Notes under the pieces: generated by a model
Databases searched by the model: none
What the model was told of the DNA's origin: nothing
What the model saw: the letters and a program-made list of their open reading frames with translations, nothing else
Made by a program: the position numbers and the translations under genes
From: an uncultured Pelagibacteraceae bacterium
GTDB lineage: Bacteria; Pseudomonadota; Alphaproteobacteria; Pelagibacterales; Pelagibacteraceae
Reading direction: 5' to 3'
NCBI GenBank assembly: GCA_902524545.1
Contig: CABZDW010000008.1
Location: 1-52,944, forward strand
Length of the DNA stretch: 52,944 bases
Part shown: positions 32,380 to 38,345 of the stretch, piece after piece
Layout of the letters: every line of letters begins with the position of its first letter
How positions within the stretch are numbered: position 1 is the first letter of the stretch

Positions 32380-33786
32380 TTAATTTTTAAAAAGGAATTT
32401 TCTTATTAAAAGTAAAATTGTTAATAACTCAATCCGGCCTACAATCATAAAGAAAATAAGATAATATTTACTAAATAATTGAAGGTTATTAAAATCGAAT
32501 TCTTCTAAACCATAGATTGAGGAGTTCACAGTATTCATCAAAGTTAAAATCGATAATTTAAATGAATTAACGAATGTTATTCCACTTAAACTCAACAAAG
32601 AGGTCAATAAAAATAAAGATAAAATAAATATTATTATTGTTAGAAAATATTTATTTATTTCGTCAAGATTAAAATTAATTTTAGTGAAGATTAACTTATT
32701 CATAAAAACATTTTTAGGTCTACTAAAAGATAAGATTTGATTTAGAGAAAACTTAAATAATGAATAGATTTTGATAAATCTTAAACCAGAGCTTGTTGAA
32801 AAAAAAGATCCACCTATAATCACCAAAATTAAGTATATAAAATTAAGATTTTCTTGGCCTTGACTTAACGAAAAGCCAATATTTGTCATACTGCTAATTA
32901 TTGCAAAAAGATTTATAAAAAAATCATAATTAAAACTAAAAAAAAGAAAAAAAGTAGTTACTACAACCACTAAATAAACAAATAAGTGTAGATCTTCATA
33001 GAAAAAATTGACATTTTTTTTTCTTAAAAAAATTAAATTATATGAAAAGAAAAGACTAAAAAAAGAAAAAAGCATCAACAATGAAAATATAATTACCTGG
33101 CCATTTTCTTTAATTATTGTTGATAATTCATTTACAGGTAGAAAACCACCTGATGAAATTATTGTTAAAGCCAAATTTAATGAATCAAATGTTCTAATCG
33201 AAAAAATATTTAATACTATAAATATCAATATCGTTAATGATGAATACAAAATAAAAATTTTTACTGCTTGTTTTAAAATTTCTGAACTATTAAAAGATAT
33301 AAAATTTGTTAAAGTTTTTTTAAAACTATCATCATAAATATCTATTAAATAGATTATAGAGAATAAAAAATAAAGACCACCTATCCATTGAGTGGATGAT
33401 CTCCAGATAATAAGACTTTGATCAACTAGTCTTATATTATCAAAGACTGTGAAACCAGTCGATGTAAATCCTGATATTGCTTCAAAAAAAGAATTAGAAA
33501 AAGTTAGATTGTAAATACTAAAATAATATGGAATTGATAATACTAATGGTATTAATAGATAACCTAAAAAAATAGTTAATATTTTCTCAAAAATGTTAGA
33601 TTTAAAATCATACTTTCCAAATTTAAAGAAAACTATAAATAAAATAAATGATGTAACTAAAGTATAATAATAAGTATCTAAATTTAGATATAAATTGAAA
33701 TAGTAAGAATAAAGAATATTAAAAAAAGAGAGTATTGAAACAATACCAAAAAAAAAACTTAAATATTTGATCTGTAATTTAAACAT
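32380..33786 (-). CDS. trkH: Potassium uptake protein TrkH
   Basis: Trk/Ktr-type K+ translocating subunit (468 aa), strongly hydrophobic. The four filter loops with their glycines are recognisable: SGFTSTGFTVFDNI, TIISSGGFLPVNEL, SSMTNIGFSLSQG and MNTVNSSIYGLEEF. N-terminal sequence is diverged and very AT-rich. It follows trkA by four bases, so the channel and its gating subunit are made together. Both lie downstream of the NtrYX two-component genes, an arrangement that differs from the usual alphaproteobacterial trkA-hfq-hflX order. Confidence 0.92.
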   Translation of the reverse strand: MFKLQIKYLSFFFGIVSILSFFNILYSYYFNLYLNLDTYYYTLVTSFILFIVFFKFGKYDFKSNIFEKILTIFLGYLLIPLVLSIPYYFSIYNLTFSNSFFEAISGFTSTGFTVFDNIRLVDQSLIIWRSSTQWIGGLYFLFSIIYLIDIYDDSFKKTLTNFISFNSSEILKQAVKIFILYSSLTILIFIVLNIFSIRTFDSLNLALTIISSGGFLPVNELSTIIKENGQVIIFSLLMLFSFFSLFFSYNLIFLRKKNVNFFYEDLHLFVYLVVVVTTFFLFFSFNYDFFINLFAIISSMTNIGFSLSQGQENLNFIYLILVIIGGSFFSTSSGLRFIKIYSLFKFSLNQILSFSRPKNVFMNKLIFTKINFNLDEINKYFLTIIIFILSLFLLTSLLSLSGITFVNSFKLSILTLMNTVNSSIYGLEEFDFNNLQLFSKYYLIFFMIVGRIELLTILLLIRKFLFKN

Positions 33787-33790
33787 TCAA

Positions 33791-35182
33791 TTAAACAGAG
33801 CTAAGTCTAAAAAGATTTTCTACAACTCCGACTTTGTCTTTTTTTACAATTAAAACAATCTGATCGTCTTTTTGAAAAATAAAATCAGATTTTGGGATAA
33901 TTACTTTTTTGTTTCTTAAAACAGCACCAATTCTTATTTCTTCTGGTAAATTTGAATTTTTCAATTCTTTATTAACTAATTCCGAAGACTCAATTATCTC
34001 TGCCTCTATCACTTCGTACTCACTATTAGATATTGTGTATGCATTTTCAATAGTTCCTTTATGAATATGTTTTAAAATACTTGAGACGGTGTTCATTCTA
34101 GGATCAATAAGATCATCAATTTTTAAAGACGACTGTAAAAGAGAATAATTAGGTTTGTTAATCAGAGCCATGGTTCTTTTATCTTCAATATCTTTTTGAT
34201 CTTTAGCAAATTTTTCAACAAGAACACTAACCATTAAGTTGTCTTCATCATCATTGGTAAGTGCTAGAACGGTTTCTGCTTCATCTAGATTTGCCTCTGA
34301 TAGAACTTCTTCATCTAATCCATTTCCATTTATTACAATTGTATTATTCAATTCATTTGCAAGGTACTCAGATCGCGACTTATCTTTTTCTACAATCTTT
34401 ACTCTCACACCCTCTAATGTATCTTCAATATTTTTGGCAAGGTTATAACCAATATTTCCCCCTCCAATAATTAAAATTTTTTTAGATATTTTTTCTGTAT
34501 GACCAAAAGCTTCTAGAGTCTCTGCCATTTGTGACGAATTAATTATTACGTAAATTTTGTCGTTTTCTTTTACCTGGTCAGTTTTTTTTGGAATAAAAGA
34601 TTTATCCTCTCTAATGATTGCAATTATGTTTGCATCAAGATTTGGAAATTTGTTGGTTAATTCATTAAGTTTTAAACCAATCAATTTACAATTATCTTTA
34701 ATTAATATTTCTAAAAGTCTGATTTGATTTTCTGCAAACGGGACACTATCTAATGCGCCTGGCGCCTCCAATTTTCTTTGTATTGATCTTGCAATTTCAA
34801 TTTCTGGTGAAATTATTACATCTATGGGTAAATTTTCTTTGTTATATACACTAGTAAATTTTGGATTTAAATAATCTTGAGATCTTATTCTTGCGATTTT
34901 TTTTGAAATGTTAAAAATTGAAAATGCTATTTGGCAAATTAGCATGTTAATTTCATCATTTCGAGTAACTGCAATAATCATATCTGTCTCTGCAGCATTG
35001 GCTTTCTCAAGAATTGATGGGTAGGTTGCTTTACCAACTATAGCTTTTACATCAAGCGTATCATTAATTTTTTGTATATCTTCACTCGACTGATCAATTA
35101 CGGTAACAGAGTGCCCTTGCTCACTAAGCAATTTAGCAATAGTGAAACCTACTTTCCCAGCACCGCAAATTATAATATTCAT
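33791..35182 (-). CDS. trkA: Trk system potassium uptake regulatory protein TrkA
   Basis: Cytosolic gating subunit (463 aa) of Trk K+ uptake. It has two tandem RCK units: the first Rossmann fold with GAGKVGFTIAKLLSEQGHSV (residues 5-24) and the second with IIGGGNIGYNLAKNIE (about 235-250), each followed by a TrkA-C domain (for example IGLKLNELTNKFPN and EIRIGAVLRNKKVIIP). Both nucleotide-binding glycine motifs are intact. It starts two bases after ntrX, matching the ntrY-ntrX-trkA order seen in other Alphaproteobacteria. Confidence 0.96.
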   Translation of the reverse strand: MNIIICGAGKVGFTIAKLLSEQGHSVTVIDQSSEDIQKINDTLDVKAIVGKATYPSILEKANAAETDMIIAVTRNDEINMLICQIAFSIFNISKKIARIRSQDYLNPKFTSVYNKENLPIDVIISPEIEIARSIQRKLEAPGALDSVPFAENQIRLLEILIKDNCKLIGLKLNELTNKFPNLDANIIAIIREDKSFIPKKTDQVKENDKIYVIINSSQMAETLEAFGHTEKISKKILIIGGGNIGYNLAKNIEDTLEGVRVKIVEKDKSRSEYLANELNNTIVINGNGLDEEVLSEANLDEAETVLALTNDDEDNLMVSVLVEKFAKDQKDIEDKRTMALINKPNYSLLQSSLKIDDLIDPRMNTVSSILKHIHKGTIENAYTISNSEYEVIEAEIIESSELVNKELKNSNLPEEIRIGAVLRNKKVIIPKSDFIFQKDDQIVLIVKKDKVGVVENLFRLSSV

Positions 35183-35184
35183 TC

Positions 35185-36540
35185 TTAATTAAATTCTTTT
35201 ATTCCAAGACCCTTAAGTTTTCTATGAAGAGCACTTCTTTCCATGCCAACAAAAGTAGCAGTTTTTGATATATTTCCATTAAACTTTTTTAATTGAAGAC
35301 TTAAATACTCTTTTTCAAACTTTTCTCTAGCTTCTTTTAATGGCACAGACAAACTATTTTCATTAAATCTATTGTTATTAATCCCAGATTTTAAAGACTC
35401 CTTGATGATATTAGAAATTTTTTCCTGAGTATTCGGTTGTAGTATAGCAATTCTTTCAATTAAATTTCTTAATTCTCTTACATTTCCATGCCAATCATGA
35501 TTTAGAATATAACTATTATTTTCATCAATTTCCAAATTTTTGATATTATAACCTTTGGAAATTTTATCTGAAAAGTACTTTATAAGTAAAGGTATATCTG
35601 AAATTCTCTCACTTAATGGTTTAATATTAATCTCAAATACATTTAATCTATGGAATAAATCTTCCCTAAAATTTCCTAATTCTATTTCCTGTTTAAGATC
35701 TTTGCTAGATGAGCAGATTAGTCTTACATCAACATTAATATCATTATTACCATTTACCCTTTTAAATTTCTGATCTGTCAAAACTCTCAAAATTTTTGAT
35801 TGTATTGCTAATGGTATTTCAGATACTTGATCTACTAGAAGTGTTCCATTATTTGCCTTTTCTAACGCTCCGTAAGATATAGACCCGTCATTTTTTTCTT
35901 CACCAAATAACTCTAAATCATATTTATCATTATCAAGTAAAGCACCATTGATAATTACAAAAGGTTTATTCTTTCTTTTTGAATTTTTATGTATTTTTCG
36001 AGCAATTAATTCTTTGCCAGAACCTGAAGGACCATTTATAAAAATTCTACTTTCAGTAACAGAAATTTTTTCAATTTGATCTTTTATATTTACAATATTT
36101 TTACTATCACCAATTAACTCATAAGAGGAAAAAAGTTTATTTTCATATTCTTTATTTTGCGTCTTTAAGCTTAGATTTTCAACAGCTCTACTTATAAAAT
36201 TTAATAATCTTGTTTTATCAAAAGGTTTTTCAACAAATTCAAATGCTCCATGTTTTAATGAATTAACTGCCATTTCTATGTTTGCATGTCCTGAAATCAT
36301 AATCACTGGTACATCAGTATTCTTTGATTTTATGTGGGTCAAAAGTTGTATACCATCATTGTCACCTTTATCTAATTTAACATCAAGTATTGCAACATCC
36401 GGCATTTTTTTATCAATTTCATTTAACGCTTGATTATAGTTTGCAGCTAATCTTGTTCGATAACCTGCATCTACAATTAGATCATTCAGAATATTTCTTA
36501 TGTCTGAATTATCATCAACAATTAATATTTCTATACTCAT
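35185..36540 (-). CDS. ntrX: NtrX-type response regulator with degenerate AAA+ domain
   Basis: Response regulator (451 aa) partnered with NtrY. Receiver domain residues 1-125 (VDD, phospho-acceptor Asp53 in AILDVKLD, K in VEKPFD); AAA+ domain about 140-370; C-terminal Fis-type HTH (NISKTATFVGMERSALHRKL). Walker A is present (NGPSGSGKE), but after ELFG the GAFTGA sigma-54-contact loop is replaced by a short EEKNDGSISYGALEKAN stretch, and Walker B is LLVDQ rather than LxxDE. Sensor I is also altered (CSSSKDL). I infer it cannot activate sigma-54 polymerase and acts as an ordinary DNA-binding regulator. It abuts ntrY. Confidence 0.93.
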   Translation of the reverse strand: MSIEILIVDDNSDIRNILNDLIVDAGYRTRLAANYNQALNEIDKKMPDVAILDVKLDKGDNDGIQLLTHIKSKNTDVPVIMISGHANIEMAVNSLKHGAFEFVEKPFDKTRLLNFISRAVENLSLKTQNKEYENKLFSSYELIGDSKNIVNIKDQIEKISVTESRIFINGPSGSGKELIARKIHKNSKRKNKPFVIINGALLDNDKYDLELFGEEKNDGSISYGALEKANNGTLLVDQVSEIPLAIQSKILRVLTDQKFKRVNGNNDINVDVRLICSSSKDLKQEIELGNFREDLFHRLNVFEINIKPLSERISDIPLLIKYFSDKISKGYNIKNLEIDENNSYILNHDWHGNVRELRNLIERIAILQPNTQEKISNIIKESLKSGINNNRFNENSLSVPLKEAREKFEKEYLSLQLKKFNGNISKTATFVGMERSALHRKLKGLGIKEFN

Positions 36541-38319
36541 TTAATTAAATTTAATTTCTATTTTTGCTCCATCTGGGATCGAAACAAAACTAATTTCACC
36601 ATTATGATCATTAATAATTTTATTTACTATTGAAAGACCTAATCCTGTACCATTTTTTTTTGTTGTGAAGTAAGGGTTTAAAATATCCTTTATGTTATTT
36701 CTTATATTCTCAAATCCCAGACCACTATCTTTAATTATAATATAAATTTGGTTATTTCTCTCAAAAATTTCAATAGTGATGATTTTATCGAAATTACTAG
36801 TTTTTTCGGCTTTTTGTTGAATGCTCTCAATAGAATTTTTAATTAAATTAAATATTACTCTACTGATTTGCTCCTTATCGCATTCTAATAAGATTAAAGG
36901 ATTTTTATAATCTAAATCAATTTTTATCGATGAGTCTATTTCAGATAATAATTTTATATTTTCATGAATTATTTTGACCAAATCATTTTTTTTTAAAACT
37001 GGTTTAGGCATTCTAGCAAAGTCAGAAAATTCATTTACTAAATTACCAATTTGTTTGATCTGATTATTTATGATTTTTAAATTTTCCTCAAAATTATCTT
37101 TTTCATTCTTATCAACTTGTTTTATATATTTTTCTTTAATTCTATCGATTGATAATTGAATTGGAGTGAGAGGATTTTTAATTTCATGAGCTAATTTTCT
37201 TGCTAGATTACCCCAAGCTTCATATCTCTCATTAATAATCAATTTATCTTGCTGATTTTTTAATCTAACAATCATTGAATTAAAATTTCTATTTAAGATT
37301 TCTAAATCTTTATCTGTTTTTATCTCAGGTACTTTTGTAGTTAAATCACCTTCTCCTATTGCGGTAGATGCAGAAATTAGATTATTTATAGATCTAAAAA
37401 ATCTTGAAGAAAATCTAATAGCAATAGTAATTGATATAAAAAGCAAAAGAGTAACTATAATTATATATATAATTGCAAATGAAATTTTTATTCCTGTACT
37501 TCTTTCCTCAACCGTATAATAAAAATTGATTGCTTCTTGAGACTCATTTAAATATTTTGAAATATCTTTATCAAGGTATTTTACAACATATAAAAATCTG
37601 TTTTCAAAAGCTTGAAGTCTCATTATTGCTGCCGAGATATTTTCAGGGGCATTTATTATTTTAAGTGGTCTATCATCATCTAAAACAAGCTTTAGTGTTT
37701 TATCTATTGGAGGAATATATTTTGTTCGATCATCTATATTGGTAAATAGTAATTCTTTATTTTGATTAATTATATGTATTTCGTCTATATCTCTTATCAA
37801 TTTTTGAGTTTTTAAAAATCTTACATATTCTTTATTGTTATCATTTAAAAATTTAGCACTTTTGTTGGTGTCAAAAGCAATCAATATAATATCAGACTCA
37901 ATTTTGTTTCTTACTTCCTCAACATAACTTTTAGCGAGTTCATAAGAATTATTTACAACCGTTGTCACTTTTTTATCAAAATATTTTTCAAGAGCAAAAG
38001 AAAATAGAAAAAGTGAAAAAATCGAAATCAATATTGAGGGGATTAAAGTGAAGAGTGAAAAATAAGTAATATATTTTTTGTTTGATTTTAATCCATCTTT
38101 ATCAATATCATTTCGAATAGATTTTTTTATCTCTAAAAAAATTAATACAAATAACGATAAAAGTAATAAAATATTTACAATCAACAAATTTTGTAAATTA
38201 TTTTGATTTAATTCAATAAAACTTCTATCTATAAATGTTAAAAAAGTTAAAAATCCTAAAAATAGTGTGATACTAGATAGAATAATTATGAAAATATTTT
38301 TTTTCAAAAATTCAAGCAT
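36541..38319 (-). CDS. ntrY: NtrY-type sensor histidine kinase
   Basis: Membrane sensor kinase (592 aa). Several N-terminal helices (about residues 8-115) with a periplasmic/PAS-like region (about 120-270), another helix near 280, a HAMP domain (NNLISASTAIGEGDLTTKVPEI), the H-box LARKLAHEIKNPLTPIQLSI, the N-box NLIKNSIESI and G-boxes (IKDSGLGF, KNGTGLGLSIV). Known NtrY proteins respond to nitrogen status or redox/oxygen; the signal here is not determined. Its 5' end is 26 bases from the divergent ispDF; the dusB-ntrB-ntrC genes that usually sit here are absent. Confidence 0.95.
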   Translation of the reverse strand: MLEFLKKNIFIIILSSITLFLGFLTFLTFIDRSFIELNQNNLQNLLIVNILLLLSLFVLIFLEIKKSIRNDIDKDGLKSNKKYITYFSLFTLIPSILISIFSLFLFSFALEKYFDKKVTTVVNNSYELAKSYVEEVRNKIESDIILIAFDTNKSAKFLNDNNKEYVRFLKTQKLIRDIDEIHIINQNKELLFTNIDDRTKYIPPIDKTLKLVLDDDRPLKIINAPENISAAIMRLQAFENRFLYVVKYLDKDISKYLNESQEAINFYYTVEERSTGIKISFAIIYIIIVTLLLFISITIAIRFSSRFFRSINNLISASTAIGEGDLTTKVPEIKTDKDLEILNRNFNSMIVRLKNQQDKLIINERYEAWGNLARKLAHEIKNPLTPIQLSIDRIKEKYIKQVDKNEKDNFEENLKIINNQIKQIGNLVNEFSDFARMPKPVLKKNDLVKIIHENIKLLSEIDSSIKIDLDYKNPLILLECDKEQISRVIFNLIKNSIESIQQKAEKTSNFDKIITIEIFERNNQIYIIIKDSGLGFENIRNNIKDILNPYFTTKKNGTGLGLSIVNKIINDHNGEISFVSIPDGAKIEIKFN

Positions 38320-38345
38320 ATTTAAGAATTATAGTATTTAAAGGA

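Follow-up and report, generated by a model that had tools for sequence, protein, structure and literature searches.

NtrX of SAR11 bacteria as a probable ATP-binding regulator at ordinary promoters

The stretch of DNA analysed here (hereafter the window; 52,944 nucleotides, contig CABZDW010000008.1 of assembly GCA_902524545.1) comes from an uncultured Pelagibacteraceae bacterium whose genome assembly of 1.06 Mb in 27 contigs is 89% complete. The window carries ntrX, which encodes a response regulator, in a tight array with ntrY, trkA and trkH (Table 1). Pfam recognized the Response_reg, Sigma54_activat, AAA_lid_14 and HTH_8 domains in the product, and thus the receiver (REC), AAA+ and Fis-type HTH modules of an NtrX are all found in a single protein, with ntrY directly 5' of its gene. 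Of 58 named loci, 36 extended far enough to cover both flanks, and all 36 show the gene order ispDF- ntrY+ ntrX+ trkA+ trkH+. The protein is 99–81% identical to the NtrX proteins of its nearest relatives, named Pelagibacteraceae, which places the bacterium in SAR11, and its residues 1–447 align to Brucella abortus NtrX (E 6.6e-115; 42–43% identity), the closest solved structure (5m7n, 5m7o, and 5m7p). The NCBIfam NtrX family NF051870 ranked first of 104 families for the protein, by about 200 bits, with a score of 535 bits against a curated cut-off of 600; scores below 600 bits were also seen in other genomes of the class sample, in 14 of the 84 with a match to this family, the window genome included. 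On the grounds of synteny and full-length similarity, we call the protein a divergent NtrX despite the score below the cut-off. A search of its own genome with the protein gave four matches, of which only NtrX aligns past the receiver domain, and no NtrC was found in that genome (89% complete) at a threshold of E 1e-135.

Table 1. Features at the ntrX locus, in window positions
Feature	Position	Strand	Basis
trkH, 4 bases 3' of trkA	32380..33786	-	
trkA, 2 bases 3' of ntrX	33791..35182	-	
ntrX, 451 aa, REC - AAA+ - Fis-type HTH response regulator	35185..36540	-	ORF, Pfam, best solved relative Brucella abortus NtrX
Fis-type HTH, residues 401-447	35200..35340	-	Pfam, alignment to Brucella NtrX
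Sensor II R355, intact	35476..35478	-	alignment
Arginine-finger region, R292 and R298, intact	35647..35667	-	alignment
Walker B D237-Q238 (Asp-Glu in canonical activators)	35827..35832	-	alignment
L1 stretch without GAFTGA, residues 210-236 (ELFG to GTLLV), 27 residues	35833..35913	-	alignment
Walker A GPSGSGKE, residues 170-177, intact	36010..36033	-	alignment
Phospho-acceptor D53 of the receiver domain (D9, D10, S83 and K105 also present)	36382..36384	-	alignment
ntrY sensor kinase (NtrY_N, HAMP, HisKA, HATPase_c), abuts the 5' side of ntrX, gap 0	36541..38319	-	

ntrY and ispDF are read in opposite directions with only 26 bases between them (38320–38345), and the ntrY promoter is therefore probably located within these bases or inside ispDF. 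In several named assemblies the ntrX start lies 17–369 bases from a contig end, and an NtrX match (E 1e-60) was absent in 15 of the 105 genomes of the order with a completeness of at least 90%.

An earlier note on this DNA had stated that the sigma-54 contact loop GAFTGA is missing at 35827–35910 and that Walker B reads LLVDQ instead of LxxDE, with Walker A, the FREDLFHRLN region and the Fis-type HTH retained, and each of these readings held. The translation of 35827–35910 on the reverse strand is LFGEEKNDGSISYGALEKANNGTLLVDQ, the Walker B residue Q238 is encoded by 35829–35827, and NFREDLFHRLN and GNVRELRN are present in addition to the motifs in Table 1. A search of the whole window protein with the pattern G[AS][FILV][TS][GNS]A found nothing resembling GAFTGA, which rules out a GAFTGA at another place. 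The L1 stretch is shorter in the window NtrX than the 31 residues of 18 outgroup activators, and ranges from 16 to 36 residues in NtrX proteins of the class. As regards the hallmarks of a sigma-54 activator (bEBP), Walker A, the arginine fingers and sensor II are present, while GAFTGA, the Walker B Asp-Glu and an rpoN gene in the genome are not.

We extended the search to 260 alphaproteobacterial NtrX rows: 58 named Pelagibacteraceae, 79 of the window's own genus plus the window protein, 17 from other genera of the window's family (f1), 22 from another family of the same order (f2), and 83 from across the class. Some rows may be shared between the named and genus sets, and the class sample holds about one genome per family, so that shared ancestry is limited but still present; a fragment (L060) and three weak rpoN matches (L138–L140) were left out of the NtrX set. 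GAFTGA-like strings occurred in 0 of the 260 rows and in 18 of 18 outgroup activators, so the earlier wording that alphaproteobacterial NtrX proteins "can deviate" here was right about the deviation and too weak about its extent. The full-genome search for rpoN gave no match in the window's own genome (89% complete), and none of 147 genomes of the order had one above the cut-off of 22.8 bits; three weak matches scored 19.5–19.8 bits, in frames of 843–874 aa. The available text of one report gives two sigma factors for SAR11, sigma-70 and sigma-32 (PMC13198564). The earlier suggestion that this regulator works without sigma-54 is thus probably correct. In the class sample, 85 of 115 genomes carry rpoN. 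Among the 83 genomes that supplied an NtrX sequence, 69 carry it, and all 83 NtrX proteins lack the loop. Because every NtrX is loop-less, including those 69 from rpoN-bearing genomes, loop loss is, judged from the alignments, an old, family-wide trait independent of sigma-54 loss. The absence of the loop across the class sample also rules out loop loss by SAR11 genome streamlining. Caulobacter NtrX is likewise stated to lack GAFTGA in the accessible part of PMC10274813, in agreement with our result, and loop loss in NtrX is in that respect already known.

Brucella NtrX shares the REC-AAA+-HTH build and the missing GAFTGA; the 2017 study by Fernandez and colleagues reportedly also noted that its NtrX has no such motif. 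Its L1 stretch is equal in length to that of the window protein in an ungapped alignment, and VGMERSALHRKLK in its HTH is identical in the window NtrX. The two differ in that Brucella NtrX keeps Asp-Glu in Walker B, whereas the SAR11 crown clade described below mostly carries Asp-Gln.

We next compared, across the order, the residue that follows the Asp of Walker B. Among 138 Pelagibacter proteins (the named, genus and window rows), it is Gln in 90, His in 8, Asn in 1 and Glu in 39; other f1 genera have Glu in 10 and Asn in 7, and f2 has Glu in 22 of 22. The Gln codons are CAA in 75 cases and CAG in 15. In a Pelagibacter crown clade (44 thinned rows, SH-aLRT 99) the residue is Gln in 35, His in 7, Asn in 1 and Glu in 1. 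This single Glu-bearing crown protein (L043) counts against a reading without hydrolysis, and the remaining Glu-bearing members of the genus fall outside the clade. An error in one genome is ruled out as the source of the Gln by its presence in 35 of 44 crown rows with both codons. A tree of the order (95 thinned rows; a quick search that left 32 forks open) requires at least seven state changes at this residue. As the crown is mostly Gln and the other Glu-bearing members lie outside it, the simplest reading would be a single E-to-Q change at the base of the crown with later changes to His or Asn. The catalytic Glu thus appears to have been lost within SAR11, to Gln in the crown clade and to Asn in other genera. 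Within the crown, column 238 changed four times, and 72% of the 451 columns changed less.

Loss of the Walker B acids was also found in the wider class. Ten of the 83 class-sample NtrX proteins lack one acid: Glu is replaced by His in two, Asn in one and Asp in one, and Asp is replaced in six, with the Glu kept (Lys in L169, Asn in L170, L186 and L192, Glu in L183, and Arg in L188). Walker B is intact in 73 of 83 NtrX proteins versus 57 of 57 GAFTGA-bearing NtrC proteins of the same class sample (Fisher p = 0.0056), and in 3 of the 4 NtrC proteins of the sample that lack GAFTGA. A joint tree was built, with a simpler model, from 83 rows of the class, 20 of SAR11 (hand-chosen to cover all states) and 4 of the outgroup; on it, Walker B must have switched between the intact and the decayed state at least 12 times. 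The earlier note had coupled the missing loop and the missing Glu in one title; both are indeed lost, but the comparison suggests two separate events, one old and family-wide and the other recent.

The positions for ATP binding and subunit contact behave differently from column 238. We take N198 to be the switch Asn, R292 and R298 the arginine fingers and R355 the sensor II residue, on the basis of the roles of these residues in PspF. In the crown, K176, N198, D237, R292, R298, and R355 each show zero changes, as do D53 and K105, and 87 of 171 AAA+ core columns never change; the HTH changes most slowly among the regions compared, with 0.63 changes per column on the crown tree. All 99 Glu-less Pelagibacter rows keep K176, N198, D237, R298, and R355, and R292 is kept in 98 of them, the remaining row having a gap. 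R292 is replaced by His in 3 of the 39 Glu-bearing rows, which we count against the pattern. At the sensor I position, where 18 of 18 outgroup activators carry Asn, 89 of the 99 Glu-less rows have Ser, as 35 of the 39 Glu-bearing ones already do. D53 is present in 83 of 83 class NtrX proteins and in every SAR11 row having that column. Because the columns for ATP binding and inter-subunit contact are unchanged in the crown while column 238 varies, the former functions look as if they are under selection and hydrolysis does not. The earlier suggestion that the protein works perhaps without ATP hydrolysis would then probably be right, the Glu being lost and the ATP-binding residues kept.

We therefore favour, at roughly three chances in four, the reading that this divergent NtrX has the build of an NtrC-type protein and is no longer a sigma-54 activator, and that it binds ATP, can dispense with its hydrolysis and acts at sigma-70-type promoters; SAR11 NtrX would probably be an ATP-binding regulator at ordinary promoters. 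In such a scheme, NtrY would phosphorylate D53 and thereby alter the assembly of NtrX on DNA. The AAA+ domain would hold ATP as a structural cofactor, at an interface that retains the partner subunit's arginine fingers and where hydrolysis is dispensable. The Fis-type HTH would set NtrX at sigma-70-type promoters, and NtrX would activate or repress through occupancy and contact. Both the absence of hydrolysis and the sigma-70 partnership are what we infer from the comparison of sequences. A structure model computed for this NtrX (mean pLDDT 86.6, pTM 0.68) retrieved Brucella NtrX at ranks 1–6 in a fold search, and its AAA+ part matched rings in the active state, 1ny6 among them (TM 0.89, normalized to the target length); the arrangement of the domains in the model is not secure, with an rmsd of about 20 Å over the full length. 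The PDB titles of the Brucella entries include ATP-bound and ADP-bound forms.

In the laboratory-made E108Q variant of PspF, the equivalent Walker B Glu is replaced by Gln, as happens naturally in SAR11, although PspF has GAFTGA and remodels the sigma-54 polymerase. In the available portion of PMC4132715, the ATPase activity of PspF E108Q is below 1%, its ATP binding about 30-fold tighter, and the protein hexameric with or without nucleotide; a trace of activity is retained, and an N64–E108 pair is described for PspF. Relatives lacking GAFTGA are reported to act at sigma-70 promoters, and some of them do not require ATP to be hydrolysed (PMC10274813, in the sections available). The GAFTGA-less regulators of sigma-70 promoters described there for Caulobacter and Rhodobacter capsulatus are NtrC rather than NtrX proteins, with other deletions, and for the Caulobacter NtrC the authors predict that hydrolysis matters (same sections). 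Since 73 of 83 class NtrX proteins keep Asp-Glu, hydrolysis may be important in some lineages. Among the matches listed from the open-licence literature, we found no biochemistry of SAR11 NtrX. The protein has been detected with Ser/Thr/Tyr phosphorylation in SAR11, and D53 is not among the phosphorylations given in the accessible part of that report (PMC13198564).

A stronger version, which we regard as unlikely though deserving of some weight, holds that the Gln itself was selected, that ATP is held near-permanently in a pre-formed ring, and that phosphorylation by NtrY gates DNA binding only, with no ATP spent. The identity with the PspF change, the persistence of Gln in most crown rows with both codons in use, and the unchanged arginine-finger columns speak for it. 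So does the restriction of the site to Glu, Gln, His, and Asn in Pelagibacter, where Lys, Pro, Arg, and Leu codons are also one base from CAA. However, the site varies more than 72% of columns, which looks like relaxation, and other lineages lost the Glu to His, Asn or Asp, or lost the Asp instead. Brucella NtrX, moreover, reportedly binds ATP without ATPase activity and without forming an oligomer (Fernandez and colleagues), and this argues against a ring.

That the AAA+ domain is a functionless, decaying remnant, leaving NtrX a plain REC-HTH regulator, has little probability in our view; the repeated losses of Walker B acids in the class speak for it, but in the crown the Lys of Walker A, the switch Asn, both arginine fingers and the sensor II residue are unchanged and 87 core columns are invariant, which opposes it. 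We would hardly expect, either, that ATP is still hydrolysed with another residue replacing the Glu. Gln, His, and Asn are polar and might sustain weak hydrolysis, and some AAA+ proteins tolerate changes at the Walker B Glu, but the near-complete loss of ATPase activity in PspF E108Q stands against this. We give almost no credence to the idea that SAR11 shed the loop and the Glu owing to the loss of rpoN, in line with the earlier note's pointer to the small number of SAR11 sigma factors: both are missing and rpoN is absent above the cut-off, but the 69 loop-less NtrX proteins from rpoN-carrying genomes already contradict the loop part, Walker B decay is no commoner without rpoN (2/14) than with it (8/69; Fisher p = 0.67), and f2, likewise without rpoN above the cut-off, keeps Asp-Glu throughout.

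NtrX still looks like an activator of the sigma-54 type, yet its AAA+ domain seems to serve in a different way. The general clue is that after loss of the contact loop the residue for hydrolysis appears freer to vary, unlike the ATP-binding residues. The natural Glu, Gln, His, and Asn variants of SAR11 NtrX would let binding and hydrolysis be separated.

An alignment of upstream regions of SAR11 genes revealed a dyad, [TC]ATG-N9-CATA. Of the genus glnA loci whose start could be read (L313–L340), 28 of 28 have it in front of the gene, as do 16 of 16 amtB loci (L357–L372). It lies about 90 bp 5' of the ATG (−89 to −124 for glnA and −78 to −93 for amtB), where the ATG was chosen by script and the values of −118 to −124 reflect an internal Met. 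The glnA count left out L341 (5' end missing) and L342 (a paralogue), and the amtB count left out fused Amt loci (L343–L356), which were used as a control and gave 0 of 14. The background was 71 of 10,080 simulated 200-nt windows (first-order Markov). The string TATGN9CATA alone gave no signal, with 14 sites versus 12 for the reversed control in the window's own genome and 1 observed versus 1.26 expected in the window. The signal is thus the conserved place of the dyad before glnA and amtB across genomes, not the pattern alone.

Searches of eight genomes with TATGNNAAAANTGCATA at up to two mismatches gave 13–33 matches per strand and genome versus 7–24 for the reversed control; in one of the genomes (G155) the forward pattern did no better than the control (15 versus 15). 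Among 30 such loci of the matches listed, with gene names taken from the N-terminal sequence, the seven without a mismatch precede glnA (four) and amtB (three). Again among the matches listed, 13 of 14 intergenic sites with zero or one mismatch precede glnA or amtB, and nine sites with one mismatch fall within ORFs.

In 19 further glnA loci, the dyad was present in 0 of 8 from f2, 4 of 9 from other f1 genera, and 2 of 2 from genomes of the genus without NtrX; the f1 misses, among the loci listed, show near forms (a spacing of 8 or one altered outer base). Six of the eight dyad-less f2 loci come from NtrX-bearing genomes. The f2 glnA genes lie 23–141 bases behind another ORF on the same strand, and because of this close trailing their promoter may be located elsewhere. 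The glnA dyad is present in four genus genomes without an NtrX match (G192, G202, G234 and G277; 92–97% complete), L332 belonging to G234 and L326 to G277, with L456 and L466 as the further loci. Assembly gaps could explain the missing NtrX in these four, since ntrX lies near a contig end in several assemblies.

The interior of the dyad is CAAN3TTG-like within one mismatch in 10 of 16 amtB loci and 3 of 28 glnA loci. The sites given for NtrX are CAAN3-5TTG in Brucella and CAAN2-5TTG in S. meliloti (PMC9223101, in the text available). The NtrX proteins of R. sphaeroides and S. meliloti act via GCAN9TGC or CAAN2-5TTG sites on envelope and cell-cycle genes, as far as the available sections go (PMC7240162, PMC9223101), whereas the SAR11 dyad precedes glnA and amtB. 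We regard the dyad as a candidate nitrogen-regulator site with NtrX as a candidate binder. That glnA and amtB are among the targets of SAR11 NtrX through this dyad is a tentative proposal, with the odds somewhat against it, and we lowered it because genomes without NtrX keep the dyad. Whichever protein binds it, the dyad before these two genes offers a testable operator for the SAR11 nitrogen response. The full combination, in which a natural E-to-Q change yields an ATP-locked ring with ATP as a lasting cofactor and a minimal regulon of glnA and amtB, controlled via the dyad at sigma-70 promoters without NtrC or sigma-54, seems to us quite improbable, and we lowered it too on account of those genomes; if true, such a ring would operate in one of the ocean's most abundant bacteria. 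Among the matches listed from the open-licence literature, we recognized no paper on the dyad or on the altered Walker B of SAR11 NtrX; as far as we have seen, what is new here is the dyad and the loss of the Glu, for which NtrC served as the control.

In most of L357–L372, the sequence 5' of the amtB dyad contains an inverted repeat of the type AACAGCCTT...AAGGCTGTT, with a different hairpin in its place in L363 and L367; the repeat is probably the terminator of the upstream gene. In the fused loci L343–L356, the ammonium-transporter domain occurs in frames of 708–726 aa, about 300 residues longer than an ordinary Amt.
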